From Rheinheimera sp. MM224 (lineage in GTDB: Bacteria; Pseudomonadota; Gammaproteobacteria; Enterobacterales; Alteromonadaceae): a stretch of DNA of 64,000 bases. The DNA is taken from contig NZ_OX352320.1 in NCBI RefSeq assembly GCF_947090785.1, positions 4,391,001-4,455,000 of the forward strand, in the 5' to 3' direction. Under the pieces are notes generated by a model that was not told the DNA's origin, made no database searches, and saw only the letters and a program-made list of their open reading frames with translations. The position numbers were made by a program, and so were the translations under genes. Numbering within the stretch: position 1 is the stretch's first letter; the number at the start of each line of letters is the position of its first letter. Below are positions 5,718-53,030 of the stretch, one piece after another.

Positions 5718-8279
5718 TTACTCCGTATAACTGTCGTACAGGCTACGACAACGCAGGGTCTGGGCGACAGATCTGACGTCAGACTGGCTTAAACCCGGCA
5801 TAACCAGTTGGATTTGTTTTGGCTGCCCTGCCAGCAAATCAAAGAAATTATCGGAAAAATTACCCTTTGCGCCGTCCACTTCAATACAACACTGACGGAT
5901 CAGGGCAGTGCTGCAAAGGTGGAGCGATAACAATCCATCCTGAACCTGCATCCTGATGTCCAGCTTGGGTGCAACCAGCTTTTGCTGTTTGGCTGGTACA
6001 AAATAATACAGGTTATCTGTCAGTAAACCCTGCTCTTTGTTAGTTAATCTGACCTGTAACACCAGCTCTTCGGCGTTTTTGTTGGCCAGCAATAAGGCTT
6101 TATCCAGCTCAAGCAGCACCACTGAAGCGTTGACTGGTGTCTGCACCAACTGGTTTTGCTGCCAGACTAAATGACCATTGAAGGTCCAGAGCTCCAGCTG
6201 CAGTTCAGCATCCAGACTCTGTAGACGATCACTGATTAAGCGCACTGTGATCTGATCGGCGCCTTCATCCAGCACCAGTAAATCAGGCCTGAAACTACGT
6301 TTGGCTTGATAGTGCAGAGCTTTCCAGCGACCGTAATAATCGATACCCGACCAGGATGCTGCCGGCCAGGTGTCGTTCAGTTGCCAGTACAACGTGCCCA
6401 TACAAAACGGCATTGCAGCACGATGCGCTTCAAAGGCCTGCTTTAGCCCTTCAGCCTGCTGCACCTGACTTAAATACAACAAGGCAGAAAAGTCTTTTGG
6501 ATCCTGATATTCCTGCTGCATGTAACTGCGGATCAGCGCGTTGCCTCTGGGGTGCTTCTGATGCACTTTCAGCACTTCTGAGCTTAACTGCCAGTCTTCT
6601 GGCAAGGTAAAACGTGCCATAGAAGCATCAATAGGGAAGGACTGAAAACCAAACTCACTCATAAAACGTGGAATACGGGTTTTGTATTCACTAAAAGGTT
6701 GTTCACCATGCCAGACGCCCCAAAAATGGTGATTACCCATATGGTCGGCATCTTCTTCCCAGAAGCCTATAGGCGAGGAGCGCAGGTAAAAACGCTCTGT
6801 ATCCAGTTCTTGCACTGCTTGTGGCAGGCATTGATCAAATAAACGGATATAGTCTTGTTTCAGGCGCTGATACAACTCGTCGCTATAACCAAACTTTTCC
6901 GGCCACTGCCAGTGTTTGATCGCCATATCCACTTCATTGTTACCGCACCACAATGCCAGACAAGGGTGGTTACGTAAGCGTTTGATATTGTAGTGAGCCT
7001 CAGCACGTACGTTCTCCAGAAAAGCCGGATCGGCCGGATACAAAGTGCAGGCAAACATAAAGTCCTGCCAAATCAGGATGCCGTGTGCATCAGCCAGCTT
7101 ATAAAACTCATCATCCTGATAAATACCACCGCCCCAGACCCGCAACATATTCATATTGGCCGCGGTCACAGCAGCAAAGTCGGCTTGATGGCGTTCAGGG
7201 GTCATCTGATGGATAAAACTGTCGCCCGGAATATAGTTAGCACCTTTCATAAACACAGGTACGCCGTTTACTTTCAGGAAAAATGACAATCCCATCTCAT
7301 CCGGCTGGTTCACTACTTCTATGGTGCGCAGGCCTATACGCTCAGAACGGCTATCGGCCTTACGACCGTCAATCAATACTGTGAAACTGAAATCATACAA
7401 AAAGGCGTCGCCCAAACCATTGGGCCACCAGAGTTGTGGCTCTGCCAGAGAGAAATCCAGCCGCTGCAACTGTTCAGAACCGTCTAATTGCAGCTGCAAT
7501 TGCAACTCCAGGGTCTGATTAAGCTCTGGTGCTTGCTGGCATTCCACCACTAGTGTGACTTTTTGGGCCGCCAGTACCTGCAGTTGCAGATCAAAACTAA
7601 AGCGGGCTTCCGCTGCATTGAGGCTATGCTGCACGTAATGGGCATCTGCAATACGGACAATATCGACGCGCTGTAAATAAATCGGACGCCAGACACCGCT
7701 GGTGACAAAACGTGGGCCCCAGTCCCAGCCAAAATGGCAAGGCGCCTTGCGGCAATACACACTGAGTTTTTCTTCGGATTTGTCGTTCTCAGCCGGATAA
7801 GTAAAACCAGCTGCTTTGTGTGCCGGTAAGGTTTCCTGAATAGGCGAGCGGAACTGCAGCTCCAGCAGGTTTTCACCGGCTTTCAGCAAGGAGTGGCAGC
7901 CTATACGTTGCCCCACAAACATATTCTGGCTGCTGCCGACTTTCTGGCCATTCAGATACAAATCGCAGAAGGTATCCAGGCCTTCGGCCACCAACTCAAT
8001 ACTCTGGCCGGCCTGTTGGCTTTCAGTTAACCAAAGTTCATCCAGCCAGAAAGATTTACGGTAATGCCAGTCCTGTTGTTCTATCCATTGCAGATGATTT
8101 TCGTTATCCCGGTAAAAGGGGTCCTCTATCAGACCATTGGCCAACAGGTCAGTGAAATTGCAGCCAGGCACTGTAGCCGCTTGCCAGTTGTTCGTACCCG
8201 CCTGAGAAAAAGTCCAGTCGCCATTCAGACTAAAAATAGCATCAAGAGAGTGAGTGTGATCTGTTGTCATAATGTCCAT
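5718..8279 (-). CDS. GH2 beta-mannosidase, cytoplasmic
   Basis: Retaining exo-beta-mannosidase of family GH2 that would cleave the Man-beta-1,4-GlcNAc core of N-glycans. Domain order: jelly-roll sugar-binding domain (LNGDWTFSQAG at the N-terminus, then 'YRKSFWL', 'DTFCDLYLNGQKVG'), Ig-like domain, TIM barrel with 'MLRVWGGGIYQDDEFY', the acid/base motif WCGNNEVD and the nucleophile motif FMSEFGFQSFP, then C-terminal beta domains. No signal peptide is present, so it should act in the cytoplasm. A longer reading frame begins at an unlikely TTG overlapping cutC (position 8342); I prefer the ATG at 8279 (a second ATG lies at 8270), which leaves 53 bases after cutC and gives 853 residues, normal for the family. 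Next gene: symporter after 5 bases. Confidence 0.92.
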   Translation of the reverse strand: MDIMTTDHTHSLDAIFSLNGDWTFSQAGTNNWQAATVPGCNFTDLLANGLIEDPFYRDNENHLQWIEQQDWHYRKSFWLDELWLTESQQAGQSIELVAEGLDTFCDLYLNGQKVGSSQNMFVGQRIGCHSLLKAGENLLELQFRSPIQETLPAHKAAGFTYPAENDKSEEKLSVYCRKAPCHFGWDWGPRFVTSGVWRPIYLQRVDIVRIADAHYVQHSLNAAEARFSFDLQLQVLAAQKVTLVVECQQAPELNQTLELQLQLQLDGSEQLQRLDFSLAEPQLWWPNGLGDAFLYDFSFTVLIDGRKADSRSERIGLRTIEVVNQPDEMGLSFFLKVNGVPVFMKGANYIPGDSFIHQMTPERHQADFAAVTAANMNMLRVWGGGIYQDDEFYKLADAHGILIWQDFMFACTLYPADPAFLENVRAEAHYNIKRLRNHPCLALWCGNNEVDMAIKHWQWPEKFGYSDELYQRLKQDYIRLFDQCLPQAVQELDTERFYLRSSPIGFWEEDADHMGNHHFWGVWHGEQPFSEYKTRIPRFMSEFGFQSFPIDASMARFTLPEDWQLSSEVLKVHQKHPRGNALIRSYMQQEYQDPKDFSALLYLSQVQQAEGLKQAFEAHRAAMPFCMGTLYWQLNDTWPAASWSGIDYYGRWKALHYQAKRSFRPDLLVLDEGADQITVRLISDRLQSLDAELQLELWTFNGHLVWQQNQLVQTPVNASVVLLELDKALLLANKNAEELVLQVRLTNKEQGLLTDNLYYFVPAKQQKLVAPKLDIRMQVQDGLLSLHLCSTALIRQCCIEVDGAKGNFSDNFFDLLAGQPKQIQLVMPGLSQSDVRSVAQTLRCRSLYDSYTE

Positions 8280-43715: not shown

Positions 43716-43752
43716 ACCAGCCAGTGAAACCAATAACAACATCAGCAGCTAC

Positions 43753-43926
43753 TTAGTTTGTAATCAACTGCTGATGAAAACGCTGCGGGTCCTGAATATG
43801 TGGCGAATGGCCTAAACCCGCAAAAGTGATTAAATAGACGTTTGGTCTAGCCTTGATGATCACAGGGTCAGGGCTACTCGGGTGCATGAATATAGACAAG
43901 CCATCCACTGACTTGTCTACTCCCTC
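43753..43926 (-). pseudogene. C-terminal remnant of an alpha/beta hydrolase
   Basis: On the minus strand an open stretch of 57 codons (43926 to a TAA at 43753) encodes the unmistakable tail of an alpha/beta hydrolase, including FAGLGHSPHIQDPQRFHQQL, where the His of GHSPH is the catalytic-triad His position. No start, nucleophile elbow or upstream part exists; beyond 43926 the frame is closed. It is therefore a decayed fragment left by a deletion, lying in the 413-base gap between the DUF606 pair and the peptide locus. Confidence 0.6.
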
Positions 43927-43991: not shown

Positions 43992-44007
43992 TGTACATTG
44001 TGATACA
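43992..44007 (+). promoter_or_regulatory. Direct-repeat site TGTACA-N4-GATACA before precursor 1
   Basis: TGTACATTGTGATACA: two hexamers 10 bases apart, the downstream one a perfect GATACA and the upstream one degenerate. It lies 122-137 bases before the first EGKCG precursor. The same arrangement in the same orientation occurs before precursor 2 (50531) and before the reductase-like gene (46914). A 10-base direct repeat is what OmpR/PhoB-type regulators bind, and one is encoded at 44862. Confidence 0.5.
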
Positions 44008-44128: not shown

Positions 44129-44563
44129 ATGAGTACTGTTAAATCACTGAATAACCGCGCTCTTCTTATCGGCGTTGCTCTTACCGGACTGACTTTAGGT
44201 CAGCAGGCGTTTGCTGTTGAAGCACTGCCTCAGGGTTATCAACTTAGTACTTTTCATGCCGGAGTTGAAGGTAAATGTGGCGAAGGTAAATGTGGCGGCA
44301 CAGAACCTAAAACTGCAGAGGGTAAATGTGGCGAAGGCCAGTGTGGTGATGCGAAGTTCAATGCCGTCGATACAGATGATGATGCAAGAGTTTCTCTGGC
44401 AGAATTTCTTGTTGTCGCACCGAAAAATAAGGCTGTTTTTGACAAAAAAGATACGAATAAAGACGGCTATATCGACGAGCGCGAATCCTACTTAAGCGTC
44501 AAAGCAGCCTATAACGAAAACGGTAAAGCATTGCCTACCGGGTTATTTTCGACAGAATATTAA
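44129..44563 (+). CDS. hvfA: HvfA-like RiPP precursor with EGKCG repeats and two EF-hands (precursor 1)
   Basis: Secreted 144-residue protein: Sec signal peptide ending AFA (about 29), then VEALPQGYQLS, four Cys motifs ([10 protein letters not shown] near 47-56 and EGKCGEGQCG near 64-73), then an EF-hand pair (DTDDDARVSLAEF and DTNKDGYIDERES). EGKCG repeats are the hallmark of HvfA-type copper-binding ribosomal peptides whose Cys residues are converted by a DUF692 (MNIO) enzyme to oxazolone/thioamide groups; the matching enzyme and partner are encoded at 48.3-49.9 kb. These four Cys are the only ones in the protein. The EF-hand fusion is unusual for such a precursor and suggests calcium-dependent folding or a calmodulin-like carrier. 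A paralogue lies at 50392. Modification and metal binding are inferred. Confidence 0.85.
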   Translation: MSTVKSLNNRALLIGVALTGLTLGQQAFAVEALPQGYQLSTFHAGVEGKCGEGKCGGTEPKTAEGKCGEGQCGDAKFNAVDTDDDARVSLAEFLVVAPKNKAVFDKKDTNKDGYIDERESYLSVKAAYNENGKALPTGLFSTEY

Positions 44564-44573
44564 GTAACTTTTA

Positions 44574-44598
44574 CAGCCCCAACATCAGGTTGGGGCTG
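44574..44598 (+). terminator. Stem-loop after precursor 1
   Basis: CAGCCCCAAC and GTTGGGGCTG form a perfect 10-base GC-rich stem with a 5-base loop, 11 bases after the precursor stop. A clear T-run is absent, so it may act as a leaky terminator or 3' stabiliser that keeps precursor mRNA in excess. The rest of 44599-44861 is AT-rich with no gene seen and probably holds the promoter of the response regulator. Confidence 0.65.
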
Positions 44599-44861
44599 AT
44601 TGAAAAACTAAAGGTGAAATTGCCGCAGCTTCACTATTTAATAGGTTGAAGCTGTGTTTTATTTTTACTTCGTCTGGTCAGAGCTTCAATAGCTGTTATC
44701 CATTGAAGTTTCGCTCTAAGCTATGTGCAGTTTTAGTTAGCCGACCGTTCATCAAACTGGCTGGCTAATGAACCCAGGATAAGCTAACACTCAATATCAC
44801 GAGTTCAGGTTATTTCGGTATTTCATATAAAATAAGTGTATCTCCTACACTAAGGGCAGTC

Positions 44862-45602
44862 ATGGAACAGGTTGAGCATATTCTGGTTGTTGACGACGAC
44901 AGAGAAATCCGTGAATTGGTGGGCAACTACCTGACAAAAAATGGCATGAGGGTCAGTTTGGCCGCAGATGGCCGGCAAATGCGGGCTTTTCTTGAAGCCA
45001 ATACGGTCGATTTGATTGTGCTCGATATTATGATGCCGGGTGACGATGGCCTGCGCCTATGCCGTGAATTGCGAGTCAGCAAACACAAAGCAATTCCCAT
45101 AGTGCTGCTCACTGCCCGCAGTGACGAAACCGACCGCATCATAGGGTTGGAAATGGGCGCTGACGATTACCTGACTAAACCTTTTTCTGCCCGTGAGTTG
45201 CTGGCGCGTATTAACGCAGTACTGCGACGCACCCGCATGTTACCACCGAATCTGCAGATCACTGAAAGCAGCCGTTTAATCGGCTTTGGTGACTGGCGAC
45301 TGGATACCAGCGCCCGGCATTTGCTGGATGATACAGGCACAGTGGTTTCTTTAAGTGGCGCTGAATACAGATTGCTTCGGGTCTTTCTGGACCATCCACA
45401 ACGGGTGCTGAGCCGTGAACAACTTCTGAACCTGACTCAAGGCCGTGAAGCTGATATTTTCGACCGTTCGATAGATTTGCTGGTCAGTCGTTTGCGCCAG
45501 CGCCTGCGTGATGATGCCCGCGAAGCGGCTTGTATAAAAACAGTGCGCAACGAAGGTTATGTGTTTACTTTGCCGCTGCAACTGCTTGAGCCAGGCTCTT
45601 GA
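44862..45602 (+). CDS. OmpR/PhoB-family response regulator
   Basis: Response regulator of 246 residues. Receiver domain 1-120 with acidic pocket DDDRE (11-15), phosphorylation Asp55 in LIVLDIMMPG, switch Thr in LLTARSDE and Lys in DDYLTKPFS; C-terminal winged helix with 'VVSLSGAEYRLLRVFLDHPQRVLSREQLL' and 'RSIDLLVSRLRQRL...IKTVRNEGYVF'. It sits between the EGKCG precursor and its histidine kinase (two bases before the kinase ATG), so it probably controls the modified-peptide locus, through the GATACA repeats. A single TGTATC lies just upstream of its own start (near 44837), which may indicate autoregulation. Confidence 0.93.
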   Translation: MEQVEHILVVDDDREIRELVGNYLTKNGMRVSLAADGRQMRAFLEANTVDLIVLDIMMPGDDGLRLCRELRVSKHKAIPIVLLTARSDETDRIIGLEMGADDYLTKPFSARELLARINAVLRRTRMLPPNLQITESSRLIGFGDWRLDTSARHLLDDTGTVVSLSGAEYRLLRVFLDHPQRVLSREQLLNLTQGREADIFDRSIDLLVSRLRQRLRDDAREAACIKTVRNEGYVFTLPLQLLEPGS

Positions 45603-45604
45603 TC

Positions 45605-46900
45605 ATGAAGCTGCGTTTGCCTCAAAGTCTGGCCGCCCGTCTGGCCTTAATCTTATTAGTTGGCCTGGTACTGGCTTATGGTTTGTCATTCAGCTCGCAG
45701 TTTTACGAGCGCTACCAGACTGGCCGTAACGTGATGCTGAATAATTTATCCACAGATGTCAGTACTGCTGTGGCGCTGCTGGACAGGTTACCTGCTGAAG
45801 AAAGAGCGGGCTGGTTACCGTTAGTGGAAAGGCGCAACTATCGTTATCTGCTGGACCAGCCCATCCTTGGCGAACCTATGGATATGAAGCAGCCCCCAAT
45901 GGCAGCTCTGACTATTGCGCAGACCGTCGCCAAACGATTCGAACCTGTATTTCAGACCATGCCAGGGAAAAGACCCCATTTCCAGGTGCATATGACCTTG
46001 AGTGACGGCAAATCACTAACGCTCGATGTAACACCTGGCGCTATACCTGTTGCTCAATGGTTGCCACTAGTGCTTATTCTGCAGTTGCTGGTGTTGCTGG
46101 GTTGTACCTGGCTGGCTGTGCATATGGCCATTCGGCCTTTAACCCGTCTGGCGCAGGCTGTAGATCAGCTGGATCCGGATGCGCCCAGCCCGGATCTGGA
46201 TGAGAAGGGCCCCAGCGAAGTGGTGTACGCAGCCCGTGCTTTTAATACGTTGCAAAGCCGTATTGCTACTTTTCTGAAAGAGCGGATGCAACTGCTGGCC
46301 GCTATTTCTCACGATTTGCAAACCCCTATCACCCGGATGAAACTGCGGGTGGAGCAAATGGATGGCTCGCTGGAAAAAGACAAGTTATGGAGTGATCTAA
46401 GTGAAATGCAGCATCTGGTGCGGGAAGGTGTGGCCTATGCCCGCAGCATGGACAGTGCTGCAGAGCCAGAATGCCGTATAGACCTGGATGCCTTTCTCGA
46501 TAGTTTAGTTTGTGATTATCAGGACAGCGGTCAGGCCGTCAGTCTTAATGGCAGTACAGCAGCAGTGATCAATACCAGACCTCATGCATTGCGCCGTATC
46601 CTGACTAATCTGACAGATAACGCGCTGAAATTTGGCGGCAGTGCCGAATTTAAAGTGCAAACCACAAAGTCCGGCATCCAGCTGCAGGTACTGGATAACG
46701 GGCCTGGTATACCTGAAGCCGAACTGGAACAAGTGCTGCAACCTTTTTATCGTGTCGAAAGTTCACGTAACAGAGAGACAGGTGGCACAGGACTGGGGCT
46801 GGCTATAGCACAACAACTCAGTCAGGCACTGGGCGGGCGCCTGAGCTTAAATAACCGCGCTGAAGGTGGCTTATGTGTCACTGTTGAATTACCTCGCTGA
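45605..46900 (+). CDS. Sensor histidine kinase of the peptide-locus two-component system
   Basis: Membrane sensor kinase of 431 residues. First membrane segment about 8-28, periplasmic sensor about 30-148, second segment about 149-172, HAMP linker, dimerisation helix with phosphorylated His236 in AAISHDLQTP, N-box 'LRRILTNLTDNALKFGG', G1 DNGPGIPEAE and G2 GGTGLGLAIAQQL. The periplasmic domain has no Cys- or His-rich copper motif that I can identify, so the signal is unknown; metal, oxidative or envelope stress are candidates from context. The ATG at 45605 is preferred over a TTG at 45599 that overlaps the regulator stop. Confidence 0.92.
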   Translation: MKLRLPQSLAARLALILLVGLVLAYGLSFSSQFYERYQTGRNVMLNNLSTDVSTAVALLDRLPAEERAGWLPLVERRNYRYLLDQPILGEPMDMKQPPMAALTIAQTVAKRFEPVFQTMPGKRPHFQVHMTLSDGKSLTLDVTPGAIPVAQWLPLVLILQLLVLLGCTWLAVHMAIRPLTRLAQAVDQLDPDAPSPDLDEKGPSEVVYAARAFNTLQSRIATFLKERMQLLAAISHDLQTPITRMKLRVEQMDGSLEKDKLWSDLSEMQHLVREGVAYARSMDSAAEPECRIDLDAFLDSLVCDYQDSGQAVSLNGSTAAVINTRPHALRRILTNLTDNALKFGGSAEFKVQTTKSGIQLQVLDNGPGIPEAELEQVLQPFYRVESSRNRETGGTGLGLAIAQQLSQALGGRLSLNNRAEGGLCVTVELPR

Positions 46901-46913
46901 TGTAACAAGCCCG

Positions 46914-46929
46914 GATACACAGAGATACA
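46914..46929 (+). promoter_or_regulatory. Direct-repeat site GATACA-N4-GATACA before the reductase-like gene
   Basis: GATACACAGAGATACA contains two perfect GATACA hexamers 10 bases apart, 106-121 bases before the reductase-like gene and just after the kinase stop. It suggests an internal promoter driven by the upstream response regulator. Same orientation relative to the gene as the sites before both precursors. Confidence 0.55.
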
Positions 46930-47034
46930 AAAGGCCTAATCGCCGACATATTGGGGATACAGCAAACACAGAGAATGGACAGCGAAGCAGCGACTGCATT
47001 CCGCATGGCGCGCTTAATCTGAAGGATCCTGTCC

Positions 47035-47667
47035 ATGACTTATACCAACTCCGGGTCCGGCCTGCGTGGCTGGACTTTATTTGCGCTGCTGTCTTTAGCT
47101 GTGTTGTTGTTTGCAACCAGTACCATGCTGTGGCACACCGAATTAGTGGATGCATTACGCAGCGCTATTCGTGTGACAGCACGCACCTCCTTTACGTTAT
47201 TCCTGTTGACCTTTTTAGCCTCTTCGCTCGCTATTCTGGTGCCAAATCAGGGCACCAAAGCACTCCTTCGGGAAAGACGCTTTCTAGGCTTGTCCTTTGC
47301 CTTTTCACATCTGGTGCACGGCATTCTGATCCTGATTTACGCCAATATGTTTCCTGAAACCTTCTGGAATGGCCGCACTGCAGCCGCCAATATTCCTGGT
47401 TCTATCGGTTATCTGTTTATTTTGTTGCTGACGGTCACCTCCTTCCCTGTGATGGTCCGACTGCTGGGTAGCAGCCTTTGGAAACTTCTGCACTCGACCG
47501 GCACCTGGGTCATAGCCGCTATTTTCTGTCTGTCGTTTTATAAACGTATTCCGATGCATCCATGGTATCTGATTGGTTTTAGCATCATGGTGTCGGCCAT
47601 TGTGTTAAAACTCACAGCAAAAGTAGCAGTCAGTGCCCGCAAAAAGTCGAAAGCCGGAGTGGTTTGA
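47035..47667 (+). CDS. Ferric-reductase-like transmembrane protein (haem-type)
   Basis: Membrane protein of 210 residues with about six hydrophobic segments, related to the ferric-reductase-like transmembrane domain (MsrQ/YedZ type, usually binding haem b). Marks: 'RVTARTSFTLFLLTFLASSLAIL' (about 41-64), 'RRFLGLSFAFSHLVHGILI' with two His, and 'LLHSTGTWVIAAIFCLSFYKRI' with another His, as expected for bis-His haem ligation. Unlike YedZ it has no sulfite-oxidase-like partner next to it. Its stop overlaps the doxX start (TGATG). In this operon a plausible task is moving electrons to or from the periplasm for metal reduction or for the redox state of the Cys-rich peptides; this is inference. Confidence 0.8.
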   Translation: MTYTNSGSGLRGWTLFALLSLAVLLFATSTMLWHTELVDALRSAIRVTARTSFTLFLLTFLASSLAILVPNQGTKALLRERRFLGLSFAFSHLVHGILILIYANMFPETFWNGRTAAANIPGSIGYLFILLLTVTSFPVMVRLLGSSLWKLLHSTGTWVIAAIFCLSFYKRIPMHPWYLIGFSIMVSAIVLKLTAKVAVSARKKSKAGVV

Positions 47668-48155
47668 TGAATCACTCCTTGCTCAAAATGGCGTCGACTC
47701 AGTTAAATACATTAGGTCTATGGCTGGCCGATATCCCACTGCGGCTGTTTCTGGCCTGGGAGTTTTTTGATGCAGGTATCGAGAAATGGAATGGCGAAAA
47801 CTGGTTTGCTCAAATCCAGTCGAATTTTCCGATGCCGTTTAATCTGTTACCGGTCAACCTGAACTGGCAGTTGTCGATGTGGGCAGAGTTAATTGCCCCA
47901 GTTTTGATACTGCTTGGTTTTGGTACCCGTCTGGCCAGCCTCGTGCTTATCGTACTGACGATAGTGGCGACCGCTGCGGTGCACTGGCCAGCAGAATGGT
48001 CCACCTTGTCAGAGCTGGCGATGGGCTATTCCATCAGCAATAAAGGCTATGGCAACTACAAGTTACCGTTGATTTATATGGTGGGGTTATTTTTCCTGCT
48101 GCTTAAAGGCTCAGGCCAGTTAAGCATGGATGCGTTGCTGCGTAAGCGCAGTTGA
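47667..48155 (+). CDS. DoxX-family membrane protein of the peptide locus
   Basis: DoxX-like membrane protein of 162 residues with four hydrophobic segments. Family stretches: 'IPLRLFLAWEFFDAGIEKW' (about 20-38), 'WAELIAPVLILLGFGTRLASLVLIVLTIVA' and 'GNYKLPLIYMVGLFFLLLKGSGQLSMDALL'. DoxX-type proteins are recurring partners in bufferin/HvfA loci beside DUF692 and DUF2063 genes, thought to serve redox or copper handling in the membrane. The start at ATG 47667 overlaps the reductase stop by one base; a TTG at 47664 is possible but less likely. Followed by a clean terminator. Confidence 0.87.
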   Translation: MNHSLLKMASTQLNTLGLWLADIPLRLFLAWEFFDAGIEKWNGENWFAQIQSNFPMPFNLLPVNLNWQLSMWAELIAPVLILLGFGTRLASLVLIVLTIVATAAVHWPAEWSTLSELAMGYSISNKGYGNYKLPLIYMVGLFFLLLKGSGQLSMDALLRKRS

Positions 48156-48181
48156 TATAATACTGTTGTATTGATAGGACC

Positions 48182-48209
48182 AGGGCTGAATAAACTTCAG
48201 CCCTTTTTT
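48182..48209 (+). terminator. Rho-independent terminator after doxX
   Basis: AGGGCTGAA and TTCAGCCCT form a 9-base stem with a 5-base loop followed by five or more T, 27 bases after the doxX stop. Confidence 0.9.
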
Positions 48210-48231
48210 ATTGCCTCTATTTCAGCCCAAA

Positions 48232-48255
48232 TAAAAGGCCCCGCTATGGGGCCTT
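48232..48255 (-). terminator. Rho-independent terminator after hvfC
   Basis: On the minus strand AAGGCCCC-ATAGC-GGGGCCTT is followed by TTAT, ending the hvfA2-hvfB-hvfC transcript convergent with doxX. Confidence 0.85.
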
Positions 48256-48292
48256 GGCATAACAGTATCTGTATAAAAAGGACGAGAGCGCT

Positions 48293-49030
48293 CTAGCCAG
48301 AAATTACACCCTGCAAAAACAATTGCTCAAGCAGTGCCTGACCTGAAGGTAAAACGGCATCCAGTGTCACACCCATACTCTCTGCCAACGCAGCAAGGTG
48401 CTGTCGCCCCGTCCACTGCTGTTGCTGCACAGATGCCAGCACAGCATAAGCCAGAGGGGCCAGGCGAGAGAAATACACTTTATGGTCGTCTTTGCGCTGC
48501 GCCAGCAATAAGGTTGGCTCTGACAAGGGGTTCTTCGGCAGATGACCAGGTCCTATATCACAGACCGGCCACTGATAAGCTAAAGGCCAGGCCAACTCAG
48601 AGAGGACAAGCACAGTATCCAGCACGCCAGCCGATGGATGAACAACAGGTGGTTGTGCATTACTGAGCAACAATACACTCTCAACGCGCTCGTAGTGTGC
48701 AAGCTCACTTAGCCACTGTGGTAACTTCAGACCGTCACTTGCACCTTGCTCCAGATAGAGTACAAATTCAGAGGCAAGTTCGGTGAATAACGGCGTTTGG
48801 CAGCGGTAATGGGCATAAAAATCCTGCACTAATCGATGCCAGTCGGCAGAACCCAGACTGGCACACAACACCGGAAAACCTGAAGCCAACATCGATTCGA
48901 TATTGCCATAAAACAAGCGGCGGTAAATCGCCAGACGCCGCGGTTCCATTCCTTCTGGCGGAGCAGAACCGGCAGGATCTCGCACATAGTGCGCCAGACA
49001 AAGCAATTGCTGCTCTAAAGTCTTATCCAT
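48293..49030 (-). CDS. hvfC: HvfC-type RiPP maturation partner (DUF2063)
   Basis: DUF2063-family protein of 245 residues that works with the DUF692 enzyme, probably presenting the precursor. The N-terminal DUF2063 domain has '[30 protein letters not shown]' (about 28-57), '[31 protein letters not shown]', followed by an Asp/His-poor C-terminal domain ending in helices. The ATG at 49030 overlaps the hvfB stop by eight bases; an upstream in-frame extension to 49174 lies inside hvfB in another frame and is rejected. Coupled translation with hvfB supports a fixed complex. The family name and role follow known HvfA/bufferin systems. Confidence 0.88.
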
Positions 49031-49856
49031 GGCGGACTCCCTGCTGTTGCAACTGGCGTATCTGTGACACTTCCCCCAATAACTCCGACAAAGGCGGAAA
49101 GTTAAAGTCCCGCTCCAGCAGCGATGGCACAGCGCCAAAACGCTGATAAGCCTGCCGCAGTAAACTCCAGACATCGTTTTTTACAGGCGCGCCATGAGTG
49201 TCTATCTTCAAATCAGCCGCTTCGTCATAGTGACCCGCCACATGCATATAAACCACCCGATCAGCCGGAAGAGCCGCCAGATAGGCCGCAGCGTCATAGT
49301 TATGATTGATGGAATTCACGTATAAATTGTTAACATCCAACAGCAAATCACAATCGGCTTCGCTCATCACTGCTTTTAAGAAATCAATTTCAGCCAAGGC
49401 CTGAAAAGGCGCGCCATAATAAGAGATATTCTCCACCGCAATACGTCGCCCAAGCACCTCCTGCACCTGACGGATACGCGCCGCCACATGCAACACCGCT
49501 TCGTCCGTAAAAGGCAGAGGCAATAAATCGTATAAGTGGCCTTCATCGGAGCAATAGCTCAGATGCTCACTGAACAGAGGCACCTGATAACGGTCGAGAA
49601 AAGCACGGGTGCGTTGCAACAGCTGCATATCCAGTGGCGCAGGGCCTCCTAACGACAAGGACAAGCCATGACAGCTCAGTGGAAAACGCTCCGCAAGGCT
49701 CATCAGTTGCAGGCCATAAGCACCACCGACATCTATCCAATTCTCCGGCGCACATTCAAGAAAATCAACCGCATGGGTATCCATGGTCAGTAATTCAGGC
49801 AACAAGCCCCGGCGTAAACCCAGGCCAGCACCTTGTATAGCAGGAACTCTAGTCAT
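49023..49856 (-). CDS. hvfB: HvfB-type multinuclear non-haem iron enzyme (DUF692, MNIO)
   Basis: TIM-barrel enzyme of the DUF692/MNIO family, 277 residues, which oxidatively remodels Cys residues of ribosomal peptides using two or three iron atoms. Metal-ligand motifs are all present in order: '[13 protein letters not shown]', [72 protein letters not shown] and LLERDFNFP. The start at ATG 49856 has a strong GAGGAG seven bases upstream; longer frames are rejected. It follows precursor 2 after 74 bases containing a terminator, and overlaps hvfC. Substrates are predicted to be both EGKCG proteins of this window. Confidence 0.93.
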
Positions 49857-49873
49857 TTGTTCTCTCCTCAAAT

Positions 49874-49908
49874 AAAAAAGCCCCCGACAGCACAAGCATG
49901 GCGGAGAC
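49874..49908 (-). terminator. Terminator-like attenuator between precursor 2 and hvfB
   Basis: On the minus strand GTCTCCGCC (49908-49900) pairs with GTCGGGGGC (49888-49880), allowing G-T pairs and one mismatch, followed by six T (49879-49874). It lies between the precursor stop and the hvfB ribosome site, so most transcripts would end after the precursor and a minority would read into the enzymes, a usual way to keep precursor in excess. Confidence 0.7.
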
Positions 49909-49930
49909 AGTTCGCAGAACAACGGCTGAA

Positions 49931-50392
49931 TTAGTTGGTCTGATTCAGGCTGGTAAACAAGCCTTTTGGCACCGCTTTGCCATTGCTCTCATACACAGTT
50001 TTCAGGTAGTTGTAGGCTTCCAGTTCAGAGATAAAGCCATCTTTATCGGTATCAATGGTATTGAAATCGCTGGCGCGGGTTGGCGCTACGGCGATGAATT
50101 CTTTACGAGAAACCAGAGCGTCACCATCGGTATCTGTACTTGCAAAAGAGGCATCACCACATTTACCTTCGCCACACTTCCCTTCAGTTGCTGCTACTTT
50201 CGTGTTGCTTTCTGCTGCACCACATTTACCTTCGCCACATTTACCTTCACCCACTTTAACCAAAGTCGTCAGTTGGTAACCTTGAGGTAAAGAGTCCATT
50301 GCAAAGGCAGCTGAGCTCAGATTTAAACCACCGACTAACGCAACGGCCATAAATCCTAAACGAGTTGTTTTTAACGATTGATTACGAGACAT
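49931..50392 (-). CDS. hvfA: HvfA-like RiPP precursor with EGKCG repeats and two EF-hands (precursor 2)
   Basis: Paralogue of precursor 1, 153 residues. Signal peptide ending AFA (about 31), [13 protein letters not shown] (compare VEALPQGYQLSTF in precursor 1), two blocks [10 protein letters not shown] separated by an Ala/Thr/Glu linker, then two EF-hands with [13 protein letters not shown] and [13 protein letters not shown], and the shared tail [10 protein letters not shown]. All four Cys are in EGKCG motifs. The ATG at 50392 has GGAG seven bases upstream; a longer frame to 50440 adds an implausible leader. It is in one transcription unit with hvfB and hvfC but separated from them by an attenuator. 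A GATACA repeat is 139 bases upstream. Confidence 0.87.
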
Positions 50393-50530: not shown

Positions 50531-50546
50531 TGTATCACTCTGTATC
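50531..50546 (-). promoter_or_regulatory. Direct-repeat site GATACA-N4-GATACA before precursor 2
   Basis: On the minus strand this reads GATACAGAGTGATACA, two perfect hexamers 10 bases apart, 139-154 bases upstream of precursor 2. Same orientation as the sites at 43992 and 46914 relative to their genes. The rest of the 318-base region 50393-50710 has no gene and should hold the divergent promoters of precursor 2 and the ohr-like gene. Confidence 0.55.
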
Positions 50547-50665: not shown

Positions 50666-51114
50666 ACAACGCCTTAATGGCAAAGCATCCACCACTGATA
50701 GGAAAGAATCATGATCACTACAATTGAAAAAGTTGTTTACACAGGTAAAACCCACACCACTGGCGGTCGCAATGGTGAATCTCATAGCTCTGATGGTCGT
50801 TTAGAGATCAAACTGTCAGCCCCAGGTTCATCAGGTCCAGGCACCAATCCGGAGCAACTGCTGGCTGCTGGCTGGTCGGCTTGTTTTATTGGCGCTATGG
50901 GTAAAGCTGCGGCTGAGTTAAAAGTAGCACTACCAAAAGATACAGCTGTAGATGCTGAAATTGATTTGGGCCTGACAGATGACGCCTATTTTTTACAGGC
51001 GCGTCTGAATGTCAGCTTGCCTGGTCTGGATCCACAAATTGCAAAACAGCTGACTGAAAAGGCACATCAAATCTGCCCTTACTCTAAAGCGACTCGTGGC
51101 AATATCGCTGTAAC
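50666..51114 (+). repeat. Near-identical duplication, copy A (ohr gene and leader)
   Basis: 449 bases identical to 52529-52977 (offset 1863) except one silent change I found (C50788 versus T52651). It starts 45 bases before the ATG and stops 12 sense bases before the stop codon, after which the copies differ at 6 of 18 positions, all but one change silent. Confidence 0.9.
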
Positions 51115-51130
51115 CATACAGCTGGTCTAA
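50711..51130 (+). CDS. Ohr/OsmC-family organic hydroperoxide reductase (copy A)
   Basis: Thiol peroxidase of the Ohr subgroup, 139 residues, expected to reduce organic hydroperoxides using its two Cys residues: Cys58 in GWSACFIGAMG and Cys122 in AHQICPYSKATRGN. Arg20 in GGRNGES is the conserved partner residue. The CPYSKATRGN motif separates Ohr from OsmC. The protein differs from copy B (52574) only in its last residue (Val versus Ile). It is divergent from the EGKCG precursor 2, so metal peptide and peroxide defence share a regulatory region. No OhrR gene is seen in the window. Confidence 0.92.
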   Translation: MITTIEKVVYTGKTHTTGGRNGESHSSDGRLEIKLSAPGSSGPGTNPEQLLAAGWSACFIGAMGKAAAELKVALPKDTAVDAEIDLGLTDDAYFLQARLNVSLPGLDPQIAKQLTEKAHQICPYSKATRGNIAVTIQLV

Positions 51131-51141
51131 GCCAGAAAAAG

Positions 51142-51164
51142 GCCCGCATTTGATAAATGCGGGC
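51142..51164. terminator. Hairpin after ohr copy A
   Basis: GCCCGCATTT and AAATGCGGGC form a 10-base stem with a 3-base loop, 11 bases after the ohr stop. A T-run follows it only on the minus strand. It is related in sequence to the hairpin after copy B. Confidence 0.6.
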
Positions 51165-52528: not shown

Positions 52529-52977
52529 ACAACGCCTTAATGGCAAAGCATCCACCACTGATAGGAAAGAATCATGATCACTACAATTGAAAAAGTTGTT
52601 TACACAGGTAAAACCCACACCACTGGCGGTCGCAATGGTGAATCTCATAGTTCTGATGGTCGTTTAGAGATCAAACTGTCAGCCCCAGGTTCATCAGGTC
52701 CAGGCACCAATCCGGAGCAACTGCTGGCTGCTGGCTGGTCGGCTTGTTTTATTGGCGCTATGGGTAAAGCTGCGGCTGAGTTAAAAGTAGCACTACCAAA
52801 AGATACAGCTGTAGATGCTGAAATTGATTTGGGCCTGACAGATGACGCCTATTTTTTACAGGCGCGTCTGAATGTCAGCTTGCCTGGTCTGGATCCACAA
52901 ATTGCAAAACAGCTGACTGAAAAGGCACATCAAATCTGCCCTTACTCTAAAGCGACTCGTGGCAATATCGCTGTAAC
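52529..52977 (+). repeat. Near-identical duplication, copy B (ohr gene and leader)
   Basis: Partner of 50666-51114. It carries the ribosome site and gene but not the distal promoter of copy A, so copy B is probably transcribed from the SDR-tautomerase promoter. Confidence 0.9.
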
Positions 52978-52993
52978 TATTCAGTTAATTTAA
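52574..52993 (+). CDS. Ohr/OsmC-family organic hydroperoxide reductase (copy B)
   Basis: Second Ohr peroxidase, 139 residues, same Cys58, Cys122 and Arg20 as copy A, differing in the last residue only (Ile). It is the third gene of the SDR-tautomerase-ohr run, 59 bases after the tautomerase stop. The DNA identity stops near the 3' end of the gene, where silent differences suddenly appear, which fits recent gene conversion between two older paralogues better than a fresh tandem duplication. Having two promoters for the same enzyme would allow expression under two conditions. Confidence 0.92.
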   Translation: MITTIEKVVYTGKTHTTGGRNGESHSSDGRLEIKLSAPGSSGPGTNPEQLLAAGWSACFIGAMGKAAAELKVALPKDTAVDAEIDLGLTDDAYFLQARLNVSLPGLDPQIAKQLTEKAHQICPYSKATRGNIAVTIQLI

Positions 52994-53001
52994 ATCTGAA
53001 C

Positions 53002-53030
53002 AAGGCCCGCTTTCACTGCGGGCCTTTGCT
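53002..53030 (+). terminator. Terminator after ohr copy B
   Basis: AAGGCCCGC and GCGGGCCTT form a 9-base stem with a 7-base loop, followed by a weak T-rich tail. The remaining 53031-53430 holds no gene I can support and should include the promoter of the TonB receptor. Confidence 0.75.

Follow-up and report, generated by a model that had tools for sequence, protein, structure and literature searches.

Gene content of the locus

We analyzed a 64-kb stretch of the complete, 4.64-Mb genome of Rheinheimera sp. MM224 (G000; contig NZ_OX352320.1, positions 4,391,001 to 4,455,000), called the window below, with respect to a locus in which two secreted EGKCG-repeat precursors, P1 and P2, enclose a two-component system and the modification proteins HvfB and HvfC. 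All eight genes of the locus are intact open reading frames within the window (Table 1). On the forward strand, P1 is followed by a response regulator, a sensor kinase, a membrane protein of 210 amino acids, and HvfX of the DoxX family (44129 to 48155), while P2, HvfB, and HvfC follow each other on the reverse strand (from 50392). Seven of these genes correspond to bfmRS, PA4103-PA4104, and efhP (PA4107)-PA4106-PA4105 of Pseudomonas aeruginosa. A preliminary description of this DNA had already recognized two secreted EGKCG proteins flanking a response regulator, a kinase, a ferric-reductase-like protein, DoxX, HvfC, and HvfB, with a precursor at each far end, and had interpreted them as an HvfA-like MNIO locus with a redox or metal theme. 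We share this view. The precursors, HvfB, HvfC, and HvfX score above the cut-offs of NF050137, NF003818, NF050145, and NF050144, respectively, the exceptions being the reductase and the subtype of the kinase.

NF050137 describes the HvfA-type KCGExKCG repeat; the full-length HvfA model NF050188 remains below its cut-off of 95 bits for both precursors (28 and 35 bits). P1 and P2 have in common the leader motif LPQGYQL, a signal peptide assigned by eye, two EGKCG-type pairs (four motifs), and two EF-hands. The second EF-hand exceeds the cut-offs of PF13405 and PF00036 in P2 and is sub-threshold in P1, the first was identified mainly by eye, and the EF-hand positions are among the columns without variation in an alignment of 17 precursors. 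The EGKCG repeats described earlier for both proteins are present at the level of the family model, with the corrections that the last motif of P1 is EGQCG and that the EF-hands had not been mentioned. The repeats end in EGQCG in 52 of the 60 top matches to P1 (P1 itself included) and in EGKCG in each of the 45 precursor rows taken from the loci described below; duplicate rows were retained in this count.

In a phylogenetic tree, P1 and P2 fall into two separate clades, each with 100/100 support. The P-numbered proteins of this tree (P0002-P0060, longer than 125 amino acids, from 746 matches of which 120 were listed) were chosen by similarity to P1, so that the size of the P1 clade reflects this choice. 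P2 is EfhP according to its EGKCG repeats, its two EF-hands, and its position; P1 is not an orthologue of EfhP, albeit of the same architecture. The strongly supported separation rules out that P1 is a tandem copy of P2, and the earlier treatment of the two precursors as equivalent copies has to be abandoned.

HvfB additionally exceeds the cut-off of PF05114 and has a PDB relative (3bww) at an E value of 6.5e-81. The weakest family call of the locus is the membrane protein, with 24 bits for the MsrQ model against a cut-off of 130, no Pfam match at an E value of 0.01, and no PDB relative at an E value of 1. Its residues His92, His95, and His153 are invariant among 28 aligned sequences (26 in another alignment). 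According to the family scan, the response regulator is of the OmpR/PhoB type, and the models nearest to the kinase are EnvZ, CpxA, and RstB, each below its cut-off.

Table 1 Features of the BfmRS-EfhP-HvfBCX locus and its borders (window coordinates)
Feature	Position	Strand	Remarks
Hydrolase remnant, apparent 3' end of an alpha/beta-hydrolase-like gene	43727..43834	-	about 0.1 kb left; 85-86% DNA identity to L003/L004
BfmR box TACATTGTGATACA, P1 promoter	43994..44007	+	TACAN4GATACA site
Precursor 1 (P1): signal peptide, EGKCG-type pair and EGKCGEGQCG, two EF-hands	44129..44563	+	
Stable hairpin 3' of P1, no T-run	44574..44598	+	-22.4 kcal/mol for 44555-44625, z -4.26
Response regulator, BfmR orthologue	44862..45602	+	84-89% identity to the 41 Pseudomonas-group loci
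Sensor kinase, BfmS orthologue	45605..46900	+	64% to P. aeruginosa PA7
Tandem BfmR box GATACACAGAGATACA, reductase-HvfX promoter	46914..46929	+	box scan of genome
Ferric-reductase/MsrQ-like membrane protein, PA4103 orthologue	47035..47667	+	63% to PA7
HvfX (DoxX), PA4104 orthologue	47667..48155	+	NF050144 and PF07681 over cut-off
Terminator-like hairpin closing the forward-strand unit	48182..48204	+	
HvfC (DUF2063, recognition partner for ribosomally synthesized and post-translationally modified peptides)	48293..49030	-	NF050145 256 bits, cut-off 142
HvfB (MNIO, DUF692)	49023..49856	-	NF003818 425 bits, cut-off 360
Precursor 2 (P2), EfhP orthologue: signal peptide, two EGKCG pairs, two EF-hands	49931..50392	-	
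Tandem BfmR box GATACAGAGTGATACA, P2-HvfB-HvfC promoter	50531..50546	-	
Ohr-family peroxiredoxin, divergent from P2	50711..51130	+	TIGR03561 over cut-off

The hairpin downstream of P1 is not among the terminator-like hits, which suggests a 3'-end stabilizer or an attenuator rather than a canonical terminator. Judged by a G+C content of 0.43 for the cassette, 0.446 for P1, 0.455 for P2, and 0.481 for the window, base composition is uninformative on the origin of the cassette. The Ohr gene is duplicated together with its flanks (50666-51151 and 52529-53013; 486 bp, 97.5% identity), and the duplicates bracket an SDR gene and a tautomerase gene; this was the sole repeat printed by a self-comparison of the window at an E value of 1e-20.

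Conservation of gene order and BfmR boxes

Using the kinase as query, we retrieved 72 loci, which were thus chosen by the kinase and not by the MNIO enzyme and include relatives that are not independent of each other. Lineage counts are based on 67 of the 72 loci, leaving out L068-L070 (partial kinase matches, of which L068 carries HvfB and a precursor) as well as the remote L073 and L074. The Rheinheimera group comprises L003-L008, including two records labelled only Gammaproteobacteria, and the Pseudomonas group L009-L049, including L042, which is labelled Pantoea. Since contig ends cut 11 of the loci L003-L072 to less than 20 kb, counts that involve absences represent lower bounds.

The seven-gene arrangement, i.e., response regulator, kinase, reductase, and HvfX converging on HvfC, HvfB, and the precursor, is kept in order and strand in five of the six Rheinheimera-group loci and in 15 of the 41 Pseudomonas-group loci, among them that of P. 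aeruginosa PA7 (L047). Eight further Pseudomonas-group loci miss only a detected reductase (23/41 when this gene is disregarded). HvfB of at least 50% identity was found in 5/6 and 25/41 loci of the two groups, respectively. The genome neighbourhood comparison proposed in the preliminary description thus recovered the gene set; at the same time, this known synteny rules out the split convergent layout as a new or distinctive trait, as which it had been presented. A synteny common to most Pseudomonas loci was likewise discarded upon the recount of 15/41. Locus L007 keeps bfmRS, the reductase, and Ohr (12221 onward), and no hvfX, hvfC, hvfB, or efhP match was found in its 21 kb.

The published BfmR box reads TACAA-N3-GATACA, and BfmR of P. 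aeruginosa has been reported to directly activate the bfmRS, pa4103-pa4104, and pa4107-pa4106-pa4105 operons. The relaxed form TACAN4GATACA occurs five times in the 4.64-Mb genome (twice in the backwards-read control). Three of these sites, at 43994, 46916, and 50531, precede P1, reductase-HvfX, and P2-HvfB-HvfC, respectively, and the other two (L105, L106) adjoin genes of no evident relation. Each of the three promoters has one mismatch to the full consensus. The tandem form GATACAN4GATACA is present twice in the genome, both times at this locus, with no occurrence in the control. In place of the two transcription units assumed before, there are consequently at least three boxed units, with bfmRS in between. 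That the two-component system belongs to the locus is borne out by its identity as BfmRS, by the published control, and by the boxes at three promoters; calling it dedicated goes too far in light of the 174 regions reported from chromatin immunoprecipitation of BfmR in P. aeruginosa. Among the retrieved loci, the reductase or HvfX comes directly after bfmS in 36 cases, and 33 of these have a box no more than 150 bp downstream of bfmS, compared to 15 of 1800 random segments.

Models of copper-sensing kinases of the CusS/CopS type remain far below cut-off on BfmS. In its sensor domain, Met44 is present in all 68 sequences and His129 in 66 of them. Among the 48 sequences of the Rheinheimera and Pseudomonas groups, Met92 (46/48), Met99 (43/48), and His125 (48/48) are conserved as well. 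None of the three appears in the list of residues for the remaining 20 BfmS sequences, and BfmS of P. aeruginosa PA7 itself lacks Met92 and Met99. The lineage-conserved methionine and histidine residues make a metal site possible in the two groups. The notion of a sensor without conserved Met/His residues was dropped after this lineage recheck.

Proposed function of the locus and origin of P1

We consider it probable that the Rheinheimera BfmRS-EfhP-HvfBCX locus represents a stress-sensing two-component system that switches on three units for modified, metal-binding secreted proteins, to which P1 was added from another subfamily. BfmS would sense envelope stress, our best guess being thiol/peroxide or metal stress, and phosphorylated BfmR would bind the GATACA boxes and turn on P1, reductase-HvfX, and P2-HvfB-HvfC. 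In the cytoplasm, HvfB and HvfC would then turn the EGKCG-pair cysteines of P2 into 5-thiooxazoles, and probably those of P1 as well. After export by Sec, the modified cysteines would bind soft metals (copper) and the EF-hands calcium, while HvfX and the haem-type membrane protein might supply or restore the redox state of the envelope. Pairs of the HvfB/HvfC type are reported to turn EGKCG cysteines into 5-thiooxazoles, and the products generally bind copper, as published for HvfA, FonA, and a gonococcal peptide (PMC13097082, PMC13419390). In the accessible parts of these two papers, the copper-binding family members are not described as having EF-hands. For FonBC, two repeats were the minimum tested, a test peptide with two repeats became 8 Da lighter (about 4 Da for each modified Cys), and replacement of Lys by Ala, Arg, or Thr was tolerated (PMC13097082); the last point makes the EGKCGEGQCG pair of P1 a plausible substrate.

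The EF-hands raise the question of whether the EGKCG/EF-hand proteins are instead chiefly calcium sensors in a BfmRS-controlled calcium/iron signalling, as proposed for EfhP, with MNIO modification in a tuning role and copper buffering as a secondary function. EfhP has been reported to bind Ca2+ (PMC9132961) and to control the transcription of iron uptake by calcium (PMC11559002), and the invariance of the EF-hand positions mentioned above is in line with such a role. However, the genes for HvfB, HvfC, and mostly also HvfX travel with the precursor, and BfmRS also adjoins bufferin loci whose BufA1 and BufA2 gave no EF-hand match (checked on L051, see below). We therefore regard a primary calcium-sensing function as unlikely.

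P1 has a narrow and scattered distribution. Searches of 21 further genomes from the genus gave no orthologue and no match above 57% identity: four contain P2-type matches of 54-57%, other matches are weaker (36-46%) and resemble short HvfA-like precursors, and two genomes have no match. At an E value of 1e-25, P1 had no match in 393 other genomes drawn from the order. Among the matches listed, its kin reach up to 76% identity and comprise Pseudomonas, Lysobacter, and metagenome proteins. P1-type genes are rare, with 2 of 398 genomes in the genus of G024 (E value 1e-44) and 2 of 299 in the order of G025 (1e-35); in the genus of G023 (18 genomes), one match is at 74% and the others are at 55-60%. 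Five relatives with P2 in synteny (L003-L006, L008) lack P1 at this place, and its slot is occupied by a hydrolase-like open reading frame in L003 and L004 and by other genes in L006 and L008. In the window, homology to L003/L004 breaks off after the hydrolase remnant and resumes at 44822. P1 was probably acquired horizontally and landed beside bfmR, where it carries a BfmR box.

The same data bear on whether P1 could be an old paralogue that was lost elsewhere in the genus. The metagenomic P0002 (76%) groups with P1, so that P1 was not necessarily imported very recently, and a P2-type match in only 5 of 22 genus genomes indicates a patchy locus, which makes absences weaker evidence. The retention of syntenic P2 without P1 in five relatives, the different contents of the slot, and the P1 kin in Pseudomonas, Lysobacter, and metagenomes nevertheless render this scenario quite improbable. 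The slot upstream of bfmR is variable in the Rheinheimera group. By eye, the SDR in the slot of L006 (7027-8871) resembles the one adjoining the P1-type gene of L141 (6492-10676), with similar-looking regulators nearby (compare also L142 6171-7604).

To what extent P1-type precursors occur with their own enzymes can be seen from six stretches around strong P1-type matches in five other genomes (L141-L146, of which L141-L145 span 15-16 kb). L141, L143, L144, and L145 contain the precursor and no other hvf gene, and in L142 HvfX adjoins the precursor. L146 joins the histidine kinase, the response regulator, HvfC, HvfB, the precursor, HvfX, TlpA, Ohr, SDR, and tautomerase. In all five of these host genomes, an HvfB of 66-78% identity is encoded within 4 kb of the bfmS orthologue; of the two P1-type genes in G525, neither adjoins the HvfB gene, and this genome has a single HvfB at an E value of 1e-40, near its bfmS. 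This linkage fits precursors that are served in trans. In the genome of L145, BfmS and HvfB are located about 25 kb from the precursor on the same contig.

Alternatively, P1 might be matured by another HvfB/HvfC pair, or remain unmodified and compete for HvfC. The genome indeed contains a second HvfC-HvfB-precursor locus (L001, G000:C1 at about 3.082-3.084 Mb), whose HvfB is 55% identical and whose short EGKCG precursor showed no EF-hands on inspection by eye, and the P1-type genes in L141-L144 (15-16 kb) and L145 have no detected MNIO gene beside them. Against this alternative stand the LPQGYQL leader and the EGKCG pairs common to P1 and P2, the BfmR box that P1 shares with the P2-HvfB-HvfC unit, whereas the whole-genome scan found no TACAN4GATACA box at the second locus, and the single HvfB of the P1-type host G525. 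Maturation of P1 by the second pair, or its lack of modification, consequently appears doubtful to us.

Several points weigh against the proposed joint induction and maturation of P1 and P2. A box with at most one mismatch was found upstream of the precursor in only 17 of 28 loci (random segments 42/1400); 10 of the 11 loci missing it have a two-mismatch form, a count made without control. In the 400 bp preceding bfmR, four of five Rheinheimera-group loci checked have no GATACA half-site, which suggests that the autoregulation known from P. aeruginosa has not been kept. The window has a single half-site there, at 44837, and the numbers in three Pseudomonas loci examined are one, three, and four (the last in PA7). 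The four Pseudomonas P1-type genes (L141-L144) have no box with at most one mismatch, although L144 has three half-sites; among L141-L145, a one-mismatch box (7104-7117) was found for the more distant gene of L145 alone, about 150 bp upstream of the precursor (7265-7699). The linkage of HvfB and bfmS in five of five genomes was counted without a background control, and P0002, the closest relative of P1, lacks the first EGKCG pair. With regard to the enzymes, the second HvfB/HvfC pair could modify P1, and Phe or Glu at the Lys position severely impairs processing by FonBC, Gln not being among the variants in the accessible part of that report (PMC13097082). Finally, modification of EF-hand-type precursors was not found in the portions of the literature examined.

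BfmRS beside a second MNIO class and relation to known systems

The association of BfmRS with thiol and peroxide functions extends beyond the window, where the box separates the divergently oriented Ohr and P2 genes. Of the 72 loci, 42 have an Ohr-like match and 61 a TlpA-like thioredoxin. The 20 Rhodanobacteraceae/Trinickia loci, except for the differently arranged L057, have a divergent Ohr-TlpA gene pair next to bfmR (19 of 20), separated by one or two boxes, and in 12 of the 20 the Ohr strand runs on to BufA1 (DUF2282), DoxX, a hydrolase, BufA2, BufB, and BufC. The families of this run were checked on L051 only, where BufA2 (5998-6282), BufA1/DUF2282 (7643-7918), and one BufB/BufC lie in the BfmRS-linked gene run; neither BufA1 nor BufA2 of this locus gave an EF-hand match. 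On the basis of this gene context, we read BfmRS as a putative recurrent regulator of MNIO metallophores and of thiol/peroxide defence. As a broader view, to which we lean only slightly, BfmRS, which is known from P. aeruginosa as a regulator of biofilm formation and virulence, may at root regulate an envelope defence module of MNIO metallophore proteins, an Ohr-type peroxidase, and a TlpA-like thioredoxin, with two MNIO classes (EGKCG/EF-hand and BufA1/BufA2) in separate lineages; this module would capture new precursors such as P1, one enzyme pair serving two precursor subfamilies.

What is new here is the extra precursor P1 of another subfamily with its own box and the recurrence of BfmRS beside a second MNIO class, the cross-lineage link between BfmRS and MNIO enzymes being the main gain. 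It joins the work on BfmRS and EfhP in P. aeruginosa with that on MNIO metallophores, points to a modified-peptide pathway as the strongest known target of BfmR, and offers envelope thiol, peroxide, or metal stress as testable signals of BfmS. The locus also offers a natural case for testing if a single HvfBC pair accepts precursors as divergent as P1 and P2. In the open-access papers searched, 'BfmR' never occurs together with 'MNIO', nor 'bufferins' with 'histidine kinase', an absence that does not amount to absence from print.

The closest known system is the bfmRS/efhP locus of P. aeruginosa, which resembles the window in genes, order, and strands (PA7, L047) and for which activation by BfmR has been published. 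The window differs in that bfmR is preceded by an additional, separately boxed precursor of distinct phylogeny and by one GATACA site instead of the four of PA7. With HvfABCX (oxazolin), fontiphorin, and gonophorin (captophorins), the locus shares, as far as the accessible accounts describe them, the EGKCG repeats, the HvfB-type MNIO enzyme, and the HvfC-type partner, as well as the signal peptide described for HvfA and the HvfX of the hvf operon; in contrast to the captophorins, its precursors carry EF-hands and four motifs. The DoxX/UPF0276/DUF2063 cluster of Haemophilus influenzae, which we take to be hvf, has been studied within the RpoE2 and hypochlorite response, compared to a two-component system in the window. 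The domain layout of the window precursors has been described as Buf_EGKC/EF-hand_5 fusions (PMC12452194). That study also reports a ferric reductase in a few clusters and, for bufferins, tandem and MNIO-unlinked precursors, and its main text makes no mention of 'two-component'. Finally, the bufferin operon beside bfmRS in Dyella/Luteibacter shares BfmRS, Ohr, the box, MNIO, DUF2063, DoxX, and two precursors per MNIO with the window, but differs in its bufferin-type precursors, its BufB-type MNIO enzyme, its arrangement as one gene run on the strand opposite to bfmRS, the presence of a TlpA-like thioredoxin, and the lack of a reductase match.

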